Source: Kaistella sp. SH40-3 | GTDB taxonomy: Bacteria > Bacteroidota > Bacteroidia > Flavobacteriales > Weeksellaceae | Direction of reading: 5' to 3' | Length of the DNA stretch: 64,000 nt | NCBI RefSeq assembly: GCF_030686865.1 | Contig: NZ_JAQYUS010000001.1 | Location: forward strand, 248,001 to 312,000 | The notes under the pieces: model-generated | Database searches by the model: none | The model's input: the letters and a program-made list of their open reading frames with translations, nothing else | Told to the model about the DNA's origin: nothing | Position numbers and translations under genes: made by a program | Shown here: in pieces, positions 49,424 to 53,418 of the stretch | Position numbering within the stretch: the stretch's first letter is position 1 | Layout: each line of letters starts with the position of its first letter

Positions 49424-50704
49424 TTAAAGATTAAATTCTTTCTTAATATCATCTACTTTATCAAGTTTTTCCCACGTGAAAAATTCTAAGTCTTTAACGG
49501 CAAAAAGTTCTCCATTGGCTCTCTTAAACGTTTTATCAGCGACATAGTGTTCTCTTCCCATGTGACCATAAGAAGCTGTTTCCTGATAAATTGGATTTCT
49601 CAATTTTAAGTTTTGTTCAATTGCGTAAGGTCTTAAATCAAAGATCGTTTTAATTCTTTCTGCAATCTCGCCATCGTGTAAACCTAATTTTGAAGTTCCA
49701 TAAGTATTAATGTACAATCCACAAGGTTCTGCGACACCAATGGCGTAAGATACCTGAACTAAAACCTCCTCAGCAACTCCGGCTGCAACTAAGTTTTTTG
49801 CGATATGACGAACTGCATACGCAGCACTCCTATCGACTTTCGAAGGATCTTTGCCAGAGAATGCGCCACCACCATGACCACCTTTTCCACCATAAGTATC
49901 TACGATGATTTTTCTCCCAGTTAAACCTGTATCTCCGTGTGGACCACCGATTACAAATTTACCGGTTGGGTTAACATGGTATTTAATCTGATCATTAAAA
50001 AGATCTTGAATTTCTTTTTTCTGTTTTGCTTTAACTTTAGGGATAAGAATTTCAATCATATCCTTTCTAATTTTCGCCAGCATTGCTTCTTCACTTCCGA
50101 AATCATCATGCTGTGTAGAAACTACGATAGAGTCAATTCTCACTGGTTTGTGATCATCAGAATACTCAATTGTAACCTGAGATTTTGCATCAGGACGAAG
50201 ATATTTAACCGCATCGCTTTCTCTTCTTAGCACCGCCAGTTCCTTAAGAATGGTATGTGCTAAATCCAGAGCCAAAGGCATATAGTTTTCGGTTTCGTTG
50301 GTTGCATAACCGAACATCATTCCCTGATCACCTGCACCTTGTTTATTTGCTTTCGTTTCAAAATCATCATCTTCATGCGCACGATCTACTCCTTGATTAA
50401 TATCTGGAGACTGTTCGTGAATCGCAGAAATCACTCCGCAAGAATCACCCGCGAACATGTATTCTCCTTTGGTATAACCAATTTTATTAATTACTTTTCT
50501 GGCAATATCCTGTACATCTAGGTAAGCATTTGATTTTACTTCTCCCGCCAAAACAACCTGACCTGTGGTCACTAAAGTTTCACAAGCTACTTTTGAAGAA
50601 GGATCATTTGCAAGAAAGTTATCGATTAAGGCATCAGATATTTGATCAGCCACTTTATCTGGGTGCCCTTCGGATACCGACTCAGAGGTAAATAAATAAG
50701 ACAT
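49424..50704 (-). CDS. metK: S-adenosylmethionine synthetase
   Basis: 426 residues. Makes SAM from methionine and [24 protein letters not shown] at the N-terminus holds the ATP-binding His and Mg-binding Asp; [15 protein letters not shown] and [22 protein letters not shown] are the two MetK signatures (GAGDQGxxFGYA and the Gly-rich phosphate loop). The ATG start is directly preceded by a ~130-nt leader that carries a SAM-II-like motif. Cytoplasmic. Confidence 0.97.
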
Positions 50705-50761
50705 ATTTCTTTTGTTTTTTAATTAAAAAAGTAGAAGTAAAATAGGTGATTGCAAAAGAAA

Positions 50762-50827
50762 CTAAAAGAGAAAATTCGGTTTTAGCATTTTTTAATGAGG
50801 TTGCAATCAGTACAAATTTTTCCTCCT
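50762..50827 (-). promoter_or_regulatory. Candidate SAM-II-type riboswitch in the metK leader
   Basis: Transcript order on the minus strand: AGGAGG (P1 5' strand), A-rich/AUUUG loop, UGAUUGCAA, CCUC (P1 3' strand), AUUAAAAAAU, GCUAAAA. SAM-II elements are built as P1, AUUU.. loop, UUGCA, P1', UUAAA.AA.U.GCUAAAA, and the match in order, spacing and key bases is good. Right after it CUAAAA can pair with a downstream UUUUAG (loop 12 nt), an alternative hairpin that would hide GCUAAAA. Regulates the SAM-producing gene directly downstream. Not verified by a covariance model; P1 is only 4 bp. Confidence 0.42.
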
Positions 50828-50841
50828 GTAAATTATTGGTG

Positions 50842-50872
50842 CAAATTTAGACACTATTTATCAAAACGCAAA
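50842..50872 (-). promoter_or_regulatory. metK promoter
   Basis: Minus strand TTTG (50872-50869), a 19-bp spacer, TAAATTTG (50849-50842), giving a leader of about 130 nt before the ATG. Confidence 0.57.
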
Positions 50873-50892
50873 ATTTATTTTGATGTTATAAA

Positions 50893-51840
50893 TCACTGTG
50901 GCTTTACACTCACATATTCTTCTGGATTTTGATTAAAATTCAGTTTATCTTTTAAGGAGTCCGCAATAAATTTAATCAATTCATCTAAAATTTTCTGTTT
51001 GTAAGTTGGCTTGTAATAAATTACAGAAATCTCCCGATACGGGAATGGCATTCTGAATCTTTTTACTTTTTCTTTTTGCTGATCGGTCAATTGCTCAACA
51101 GCAAGTTCTGGCAGAATACTGATACCGCCCAATTTATCTACCAGTTGAACTAATGTACTGATGTTAGAAGCCACAAATTCCAGATTTTTCGGTTTTACTG
51201 TGTTTTCTTTCAGTTCACAAATATTCTCAAACTGGGTTCTCAAACAGTTGCCTTCTTCCAAAAGCCAAACTTTTTGCACATCAATGTCTTCCGGAACCAC
51301 AAAACTGTCTTTTTTTCCTGTTTCATCTGCAGCGTACAGCATCAATTCTTCATTAAATAAAAAGTCGTGATAAAATTCATTTGCAGCTGTATAAGGTGTA
51401 GAAATAATTCCTGCATCAAGTTCACCGGTTTTCAGAGCCTTGATGATATTATCAGTCGTCATTTCTTTAACGTTAAGTTCAATCTTTGGATTGTTTTTCA
51501 GAAAATCAAAAATTTCTGTTGGCAAGATAAAGCCTGAAATGGTGGGAAGAATGCCTAAATTAAGTTTTCCAGCCAACACATTATTCAATAAATTTGCTTT
51601 GCTTTTCAACTCATTAATGGCGTCGATTACTCTTTTCGCTTCAACGATTATTTGCACTCCTACATCAGTCGTTCGAATGGGGTGAGTTGTACGGTCGAAA
51701 ATCTTCACATCCATCTCATCCTCAAACTTTTGAATCATCGCACTCAATGTAGGTTGCGTTATGAAGCAGGCTTGAGCCGCATTGCCAAAGTGTTTATATT
51801 TATCTACCGCGATAAGATATTCTAATTGCTGAATGTTCAT
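50893..51840 (-). CDS. oxyR: Peroxide-sensing LysR regulator OxyR
   Basis: 315 residues. N-terminal winged helix (LEYLIAVDKYKHFGNAAQAC..TQPTLSAMIQKFE). The effector domain holds two redox Cys, Cys199 (EEGNCLRTQ) and Cys208 (FENIC), at exactly the E. coli OxyR numbering and spacing, so oxidation to a disulfide by peroxide is likely to activate it. Divergent from katA with a 90-bp shared control region. It is the natural regulator of that catalase. Confidence 0.93.
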   Translation of the reverse strand: MNIQQLEYLIAVDKYKHFGNAAQACFITQPTLSAMIQKFEDEMDVKIFDRTTHPIRTTDVGVQIIVEAKRVIDAINELKSKANLLNNVLAGKLNLGILPTISGFILPTEIFDFLKNNPKIELNVKEMTTDNIIKALKTGELDAGIISTPYTAANEFYHDFLFNEELMLYAADETGKKDSFVVPEDIDVQKVWLLEEGNCLRTQFENICELKENTVKPKNLEFVASNISTLVQLVDKLGGISILPELAVEQLTDQQKEKVKRFRMPFPYREISVIYYKPTYKQKILDELIKFIADSLKDKLNFNQNPEEYVSVKPQ

Positions 51841-51901: not shown

Positions 51902-51909
51902 TAAATTTG
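51902..51909 (+). promoter_or_regulatory. Candidate -7 box for katA
   Basis: TAAATTTG, 21 nt before the katA ATG; TTTG 22 bp upstream (51876-51879). The oxyR/katA gap is where an OxyR site should lie, but no clear palindrome was seen. Confidence 0.5.
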
Positions 51910-51930
51910 AGGTTTATTAAAATCACTGAT

Positions 51931-53418
51931 ATGAGCGACAACAAACTGACTAACTCCGCCGGAATCCCTTATTATAATCACGAGGATTCGCAAACTGCTG
52001 GACCAAGAGGACCCGTCTTATTACAGGACTTCGTCTTACAGGAAAATCTGGCTCATTTTGTACGTGAAAGAATTCCTGAAAGAGTGGTACATGCAAAGGG
52101 AACTGGCGCTTACGGAACATTTACCGTAACCCACGATATTTCAAAATATACCAAAGCCAAACTATTTTCAAACGTTGGAAATTCATGCAGAATATTTACA
52201 AGATTCTCCACAGTTGGTGGTGAAAAAGGAAGCGCCGATACCGAAAGAGATCCTCGCGGTTTTGCAGTGAAATTCTACACAGAAGAAGGAAACTGGGATT
52301 TGGTCGGAAATAACACCCCCGTCTTCTTTATTAAAGATGCTAAAAAATTTCCAGATTTTATTCATACTCAGAAACGTTTACCAAAGACTAATTTAAAAAG
52401 TGCTACGATGATGTGGGATTTTTGGAGTTTCAATCCTGAATCACTACACCAGGTTTTAATCTTAATGTCGGATCGCGGAACTCCTCATGGTTATCGTCAT
52501 ATGCACGGTTTTGGATCCCACACTTTTTCAATGATTAATGCGGCCAATGAAAGAGTTTGGGTTAAGTTTCATTTCAAAACAAAACAAGGAATTAAAAACT
52601 TCACCGATGAAGATGCCGTAAAAATGAAAGGAGAAAATCCTGATTTTGCGCAGGAAGATTTAGTCAAATCTATAGAAGCTGGTGACTTTCCAAAATGGAC
52701 TCTTTATCTACAGGTAATGACTGAGGATCAAGCAAAAGAATTTCGCTGGAATCCTTTTGATGTTACTAAAGTTTGGTTTCACGACGAATTCCCATTAATA
52801 GAAGTTGGTGAGATGGAACTGAATGAAATCCCCGTTAATTATTTCGCTCATGTAGAACAAGCCACTTTTTCTCCGAGTAATTTAATTAATGGAATTAGTT
52901 TTTCACCTGATAAAATGTTACAAGGTCGACTTTTCTCCTATCCAGACGCTCACCGTTATCGTGTTGGGGCAAATGCTCATTTGTTAGAAGTTAACCGCTG
53001 TCCATTTATGGTTAACAATTATCAGAGAGATGGCGCAATGGCAGATTCAAGTCACTATAAAGATGCACCAAATTATTACCCAAATAGTTTTGATGAAATT
53101 AAACCGTCAACCGATTATAAGAATTTCGAAGAAGATTTAGATAGCACGCGAGTAGCTAATTTTAATCGCAACGAAAATGATGACGATCATTTCACACAGC
53201 CTGGATTACTTTATTCAAAGGCGATGAACGAATCAGACCGACAAAATTTAACATCCAACATTGTAACTTCGATGAAAGGCATTTCGGGCCCGAAAAGAGA
53301 TGAAATCATCAACCGCCAATTGTGTCTCTTTTTCCGAGCCAACATTGATTTGGGAATGAAAATCGCCATGGGCTTACAAGTAAATATTGATGGAAATATG
53401 ATGAATCATTCGAAATAA
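51931..53418 (+). CDS. katA: Monofunctional heme catalase
   Basis: 495 residues from the ATG at 51931 (MSDNKLTNSAGIPYY); an eight-codon longer frame is rejected because it would start before the promoter's leader. Dismutates H2O2. Catalytic His54 in RVVHAKGTGAYGTF; heme pocket RFSTVGGEKGSADTERDPRG; proximal Tyr337 in RLFSYPDAHRYRVG. Length fits the small-subunit clade 3. No export signal. Divergent from oxyR, so induction by peroxide is expected. Confidence 0.96.
   Translation: MSDNKLTNSAGIPYYNHEDSQTAGPRGPVLLQDFVLQENLAHFVRERIPERVVHAKGTGAYGTFTVTHDISKYTKAKLFSNVGNSCRIFTRFSTVGGEKGSADTERDPRGFAVKFYTEEGNWDLVGNNTPVFFIKDAKKFPDFIHTQKRLPKTNLKSATMMWDFWSFNPESLHQVLILMSDRGTPHGYRHMHGFGSHTFSMINAANERVWVKFHFKTKQGIKNFTDEDAVKMKGENPDFAQEDLVKSIEAGDFPKWTLYLQVMTEDQAKEFRWNPFDVTKVWFHDEFPLIEVGEMELNEIPVNYFAHVEQATFSPSNLINGISFSPDKMLQGRLFSYPDAHRYRVGANAHLLEVNRCPFMVNNYQRDGAMADSSHYKDAPNYYPNSFDEIKPSTDYKNFEEDLDSTRVANFNRNENDDDHFTQPGLLYSKAMNESDRQNLTSNIVTSMKGISGPKRDEIINRQLCLFFRANIDLGMKIAMGLQVNIDGNMMNHSK

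Follow-up and report, generated by a model that had tools for sequence, protein, structure and literature searches.

Long-loop SAM-II riboswitches (RF01726) were catalogued in 2010 by Weinberg et al. for Bacteroidetes and marine sequences (PMC2864571), and the expression platform proposed here does not appear in the accessible portions of that report. The occurrence of SAM-II in Bacteroidetes is also remarked upon in PMC2258182, the available text of which describes the general sequestor/antisequestor scheme. For S. meliloti, the available portions of PMC9373788 describe SAM-II outputs based on a terminator or on a Shine-Dalgarno (SD) sequence. How Bacteroidota riboswitches shut off translation is not obvious, because mRNAs in this phylum largely lack SD sequences; according to the accessible text of PMC6847099, F. 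johnsoniae mRNAs are devoid of them, upstream adenines and low structure serve initiation, and structure in the start region tunes it. The titles and abstracts surveyed, a scope largely outside the subscription literature, held no description of a SAM-II expression platform in Bacteroidota, and the accessible parts of PMC9723704, PMC7366714 and PMC6429828 do not mention a metK SAM-II switch. SD-less shut-off could be tested on the metK leaders, whose pairings are few, conserved and in part naturally compensated.

Scanning the window, that is, the whole 64 kb stretch of DNA analyzed, with cmscan returned two tRNAs and one riboswitch. The riboswitch was RF01726, SAM-II (long loops), at 50831-50772 on the minus strand (60.7 bits; model positions 1-60 of 60; E 3.4e-9, a value that refers to the 64 kb window and 4227 families), and the source genome carries one copy. 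The metK leader element is a member of this known family, in print since 2010; it shares with it the full 60-position match above the gathering score of 44 bits, the position upstream of metK and the Bacteroidota host, but differs in that the middle P2 pair is non-standard in the window's clade. The first-pass annotation had named the right kind of riboswitch and been slightly off in the model: in a permissive cmscan of 50500-51100, RF00521 reached only 12.6 bits against its cut-off of 36 and was rejected as the family, and SAM-V was absent among the seven matches listed at E <= 10. The element shares a P1 hairpin, a pseudoknot and the words AUUUG, UUGCA and GCUAAA with the RF00521 riboswitches of S. 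meliloti metA and metZ, as far as the available text of PMC9373788 describes them. In contrast to the SD or terminator outputs given there, no terminator was found here and no SD stands at the start codon.

The core words AUUUG, UUGCAA and GCUAAA are all present in the window and aligned to the RF01726 model. Reading along the minus strand from 50827 to 50762, every word claimed by the first-pass annotation was recovered in the order claimed: AGGAGG (50827-50822), whose GAGG (50825-50822) is the P1 5' strand according to the P1 pair types; AUUUG; the loop segment UGAUUGCAA (50809-50801); the P1 3' strand CCUC (50800-50797), assigned in the same way; AUUAAAAAAU; the conserved aptamer 3' strand GCUAAAA (50786-50780); and UUUUAG (50767-50762). 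The aptamer ends 68 nt before the 426-aa ORF at 49424-50704 on the minus strand (AUG at 50704), which we take to be metK, encoding S-adenosylmethionine synthetase, from a GHPDK-type motif. Over residues 1-426, its product is 82% identical to that of a Chryseobacterium MAG and 83% identical to that of Planobacterium oryzisoli, the closest of the 80 named MetK loci retained, which agrees with a place in the Chryseobacterium group. The leaders of relatives likewise sit ahead of metK. From sequence, we infer that the predicted aptamer binds SAM and that SAM feeds back on metK. The aptamer itself is an ordinary member of a catalogued riboswitch family; the value of the locus lies in its downstream part, where a conserved anti-aptamer working against a start sequestor that needs no SD would be a testable refinement of moderate interest.

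RF01726 was found in 36/36 genomes of the window's genus, in 284/296 sampled genomes of the family and in 29 of the 33 genera sampled. An even sample of the phylum gave matches in 63/395 genomes, 57 of them above the cut-off; the filters used there miss a part of the weak matches. From 174 loci, 131 distinct aptamers were compared, using a pattern that retained only those with at least three of the four P1 pairs. P1 is GAGG/CCUC in 103 of them, GUGG/CCAC in 25, AGGG/CCCU in one and another type in two; its second pair is A-U in 103, U-A in 26 and G-C in two. P1 shows compensatory change across Bacteroidota, yet this change tracks large lineages rather than many independent events. The identification of a SAM-II-type metK leader is thus supported by the score of the match, by its presence throughout the genus and by compensatory changes in P1, so that both a covariance-model match and compensatory change are in evidence. 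The four base pairs of P1, which the first-pass annotation had regarded as the weak point, show no special weakness, since the stem recurs exactly as GAGG/CCUC in those 103 aptamers.

The 25/131 aptamers with GUGG/CCAC also bear on whether AGGAGG could be a ribosome-binding or standby site with access regulated by the pairings. The word is SD-like, and S. meliloti metA needs a riboswitch-borne SD for translation starting 74 nt downstream, according to the available text of PMC9373788. In the window, however, it lies 118 nt upstream of the AUG and is itself a P1 strand, and Bacteroidia ribosomes do not recognize the SD, as stated in the accessible part of PMC9976891. We therefore judge a ribosome-binding role for AGGAGG unlikely in the extreme.

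The P2 pseudoknot of SAM-II pairs the loop with the tail 3' of GCUAAA. P2 is CUG/CAG in 82 of the 131 distinct aptamers, and variants that still pair are few (AUG/CAU in one, CUG/CGG in three). The window has CUG/CCG, a form found in three distinct aptamers, in which the middle pair is a U.C mismatch; among the genus leaders, GCUAAAACCG, with this broken pair, occurs in 10/36 and GCUAAAACAG in 24/36. Covariation had been proposed as a check on both helices, and it stands for P1 but is thin for P2; P2, rather than the 4-bp P1, is the softer spot of the aptamer. This mismatch speaks for a decayed or SAM-blind relic that would have lost binding through P2. Against such a relic, the core words are all intact, the variant is kept in ten genomes with the remaining aptamer little changed, and true loss looks different, as in genus g17 of the same family; we regard decay as very improbable. 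In four other leaders (L080, L085, L086 and L088, from genera g19 and g29), GGGUUGCAA and GCUAAU replace GAUUGCAA and GCUAAA, with metK still downstream. An extra hairpin-like insert was also seen between the P1 3' strand and GCUAAA in the Flavobacteriales loci L129, L139, L142, L231, L233, L237, L238, L240 and L241.

In genus g17, metK is present in 9/9 genomes and an RF01726 match in 0/9; the six of its nine loci that were scanned (L210, L213, L214, L216, L217 and L218) gave no Rfam match at E <= 0.05. Seven of the nine leaders (L211-L217) carry TAAATTTGCAA about 30 nt upstream of the ATG, and a promoter-like TAAATTTG is placed at that distance in seven of nine; L210 and L218 deviate. Leaders of this kind are to be expected if the switch has been lost, and g17 would then be a genus in which metK feedback disappeared naturally. 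Single loci from genera g16 (L209) and g8 (L219) also have metK without an RF01726 match, and without any Rfam match at E <= 0.05. Second RF01726 matches in ten g21 genomes were rejected, all ten lying below the cut-off (30.9-36.2 bits). In nine of them (L200-L208), visual inspection suggests that the matched segment is coding and continues into a protein that we presume to be Ffh-like, and these matches were accordingly taken as chance; the tenth (L199) lies ahead of another gene and lacks UUGCA.

Upstream of the aptamer, a putative Bacteroidota-type promoter can be read at 50871-50842 on the minus strand, consisting of TTG (50871-50869), 19 nt and TAAATTTG (50849-50842). TAnnTTTG, a promoter consensus quoted in the accessible text of PMC9723704, occurs at most 75 nt upstream of P1 in 99/99 family leaders examined (99 of 106). 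It is preceded by TTG at 17-23 nt in 77/99 and ends 13-17 nt ahead of P1 in 81/99. The RNA would be expected to start just upstream of the aptamer. The metK leader is bounded upstream by the end of an ORF at 50893. This ORF (50893-51840, minus strand), presumably a LysR-type (OxyR-like) regulator judging from its sequence, lies on the same strand as metK and back to back with 51907-53418 (plus strand), which we take on the same basis to be a catalase-like gene.

The same region was searched for intrinsic terminators, and 50600-51000 held no terminator-like site (shuffles 0.1). The terminator/promoter scan also returned no promoters, which is uninformative because it models sigma-70 promoters and not the Bacteroidota type. 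Transcription attenuation, in which SAM binding would permit an intrinsic leader terminator, draws on precedent, since the available text of PMC2258182 states that SAM-II in alpha- and beta-Proteobacteria is most often terminator-linked and that of PMC9373788 offers S. meliloti metZ as an instance. The absence of terminator-like sites argues against it at this locus, as does the sequestor stem, which is rich in A and U and has the start codon right after it, and we consider attenuation improbable.

The downstream part of the leader is organized around inverted repeats, which were scanned in the window before relatives were retrieved, when only the source locus had been fetched. Among the 14 pairs found, a perfect 9-nt match joins UGAUUGCAA (50809-50801) to UUGCAAUCA (50755-50747), forming an anti-aptamer, and another joins UUUCUUUUG (50761-50753) to the A-rich CAAAAGAAA (50714-50706) directly ahead of the AUG, forming a start sequestor. 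A third perfect 9-nt repeat, AUUAAAAAA (50796-50788) with UUUUUUAAU (50730-50722), is unused in our model. Nested inside the anti-aptamer, GCUAAAA (50786-50780) pairs with UUUUAGU (50767-50761). The anti-aptamer and sequestor 9-mers share UUG at 50755-50753 and therefore exclude each other in full. The GCUAAAA/UUUUAG switching hairpin suggested by the first-pass annotation belongs to a wider group of mutually exclusive pairings, and the second exclusive pairing, with the region ahead of the AUG, was absent from that annotation. Complementarity between the linker and the 16 nt upstream of the start ranks metK second among 45 non-overlapping window ORFs of at least 150 aa.

Folding predicts two exclusive states, one with the anti-aptamer and a more open start, the other with the aptamer and a hidden start. 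In the free ensemble, the two anti-aptamer pairings have probabilities of 1.00 (outer, UGAUUGCAA/UUGCAAUCA) and 0.97 (inner, GCUAAAA/UUUUAGU), and P1 and the sequestor are absent. When the aptamer is imposed and other pairing of its loop and tail is barred, the sequestor rises from 0.00 to 0.99 and the unpaired fraction of the 13 nt ahead of the AUG falls from 0.55 to 0.13. By prediction only, a start exposed or hidden through mutually exclusive pairings would fit a translational OFF riboswitch with a sequestor and an antisequestor. The arrangement resembles the general OFF switches described in the available text of PMC2258182, in which the bound aptamer removes the antisequestor and the sequestor closes the ribosome-binding region; unlike in those, the hidden element here would be an A-rich start region and not an SD. 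Nascent-chain folding favors P1 up to 50753 (0.82) and loses it at 50745 (0.01), so that the decision on SAM would fall within about 30 nt of transcription. In the full-length unliganded RNA, the gap against the aptamer state is about 12 kcal/mol, with the pseudoknot outside the energy model; a gap of this size favors control by kinetics over control at equilibrium. Taken as a whole, the leader shows no unusual stability (z -1.22).

On this basis, we lean modestly towards a long-loop SAM-II (RF01726) riboswitch that turns metK off at high SAM by hiding its start. Transcription would begin just upstream of the aptamer. If SAM is bound while the polymerase crosses about 30 nt further, P1 and the pseudoknot would retain GAUUGCAA and GCUAAAA, leaving UUUCUUUUG free to pair later with CAAAAGAAA directly before the AUG. 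This pairing would hide the A-rich start region, the phylum's substitute for an SD, and little MetK would be made. Without SAM, UGAUUGCAA/UUGCAAUCA and GCUAAAA/UUUUAGU would form first, whereby the aptamer would be lost, part of UUUCUUUUG consumed and the start left more open. Computation shows the aptamer match, the covariation of P1 and the exclusive pairings with their conservation; SAM binding, the OFF direction, control at the level of translation and a kinetic choice are inferred. A broader proposal, which we hold tentatively and at slightly less than even chances, is that of an SD-less translational SAM-II in which SAM binding to the aptamer would release a short pyrimidine tract to pair with an A-rich, Kozak-like stretch directly before the AUG. 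From genus to genus, the tract and its target would drift in concert, against a constant aptamer.

These exclusive pairings are conserved within the genus. Its 36 leaders carry UUUUAGUUUC, for the inner anti-aptamer 3' arm, in 33 cases, UUG[CU]AAUC, for the outer 3' arm, in 34, the sequestor 5' arm UUUCUUUUG in 28 and CAAAAGAA, for the 3' arm, within 16 nt of the ATG in 28. Taking the definition of the sequestor solely from the window, we aligned 39 leaders, namely the 36 of the genus and one from each of three other genera (L103, L040 and L081); L012 and L016 are misaligned by two columns. The sequestor pairs in 94.0% of cells against 91.4 in shuffles (reached by 0/500) and 59-63% when slid, and it has five double-changed cells against 1.0 (reached by 1/500). 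The number of pairs with a double change (two; 54/500) and of further pair types (seven; 83/500) is unremarkable. For the anti-aptamer, 97.6% of cells are paired and double changes are absent, because its aptamer arm is fixed.

Beyond the genus, the family set comprised 106 leaders from 29 genera (L001-L109 minus L106 and L109, which were unparsed, and L064, which has a run of N). With one leader per genus, patterns written after the leaders had been inspected and related genera that are not independent, a complement of GCUAAA occurs in 15/29 genera against 3.3 in shuffles (0/300) and one of GAUUGC in 13/29 against 3.2 (0/300). Without the window's genus, the figures are 14/28 and 12/28, each against 3.1, which supports the switching hairpin first proposed. 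A control pattern, GATTT[CT], also exceeded shuffles (7/29 against 3.3; 9/300). Of the 77 named loci L113-L189, 38 were used (13 Flavobacteriales and 25 others). The 13 Flavobacteriales had the GCUAAA complement in four (shuffles 1.4) and the GAUUGC complement in eight (1.1), with the control GATTTG or GAGGAA again in excess (2/13 against 0.2; 5/300). A third pattern, directed against the P1/AUUUG strand, is unenriched in the family (4/29 against 5.0) and enriched in these 13 (eight against 2.3; 0/300). The 25 other named loci, most of them from Bacteroidales, show no enrichment of any of these three anti-aptamer patterns. The anti-aptamer thus exceeds chance and is widespread among Flavobacteriia, but good support for start hiding is confined to the window's genus and some others, and the sequestor is not universal.

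This difference in breadth gives some weight to a genuine SAM-II whose platform is the exchange of aptamer and anti-aptamer alone, with control through RNA decay, Rho-dependent termination or ribosome standby and with UUUCUUUUG/CAAAAGAAA as a lineage-local extra. Shuffled linkers (60 per leader) were compared for 84 of the 106 leaders, comprising 20/36 from the window's genus, 7/13 from g21 and all 57 others, where chance would give about four leaders per measure and leaders are not independent. Cross-pairing with the aptamer reached p <= 0.05 in 45/84 leaders and, by median, 16/29 genera, the change in start openness in 31/84 and 7/29, and start closure alone in 14/84 and 3/29. In a further set, where 23 of 38 wanted loci were parsed, cross-pairing passed in 15 leaders and start openness in four, or in 12/19 and 2/19 outside the family once the four g21 leaders are set aside. 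The S. meliloti metA SAM-II is also reported, in the available text of PMC9373788, to affect RNA stability as well as translation from a distant SD. What argues against exchange alone is the folded switch of the window together with the compensatory changes in the sequestor, including exact compensated stems in L081, L069, L033 and L040. We regard exchange alone as possible though rather unlikely, and start hiding as the preferred reading for metK.

Other comparisons bearing on start hiding are more uneven. Scored by the best contiguous stem, the sequestor gives p 0.06 in the window and p <= 0.05 in 2/29 genera (Fisher 0.034, or 0.058 without the window's genus), and the anti-aptamer passes in 4/29 genera (Fisher 0.0042) with p 0.26 in the window alone; as general proof, this test has moderate force for the anti-aptamer and little for the sequestor. 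The gap of about 12 kcal/mol in the unliganded RNA and the P2 mismatch also weigh against the proposed switch. Exchange of linkers between genera is no more than suggestive, as the genus's own linker clearly beats foreign ones in g1, g12 and g30 (0.05 or less) and is not better in many others, for example g2 (0.86) and g10 (0.94), with only two foreign linkers available for g14. No folding switch was predicted for L013 (p 0.63) or in g22 (0/9), and in g10 one of four leaders passed. Within the window's genus, five leaders (L026, L027, L028, L030 and L090) combine distal sequestor mismatches with a local UUCUAUU/AAUAGAA alternative.
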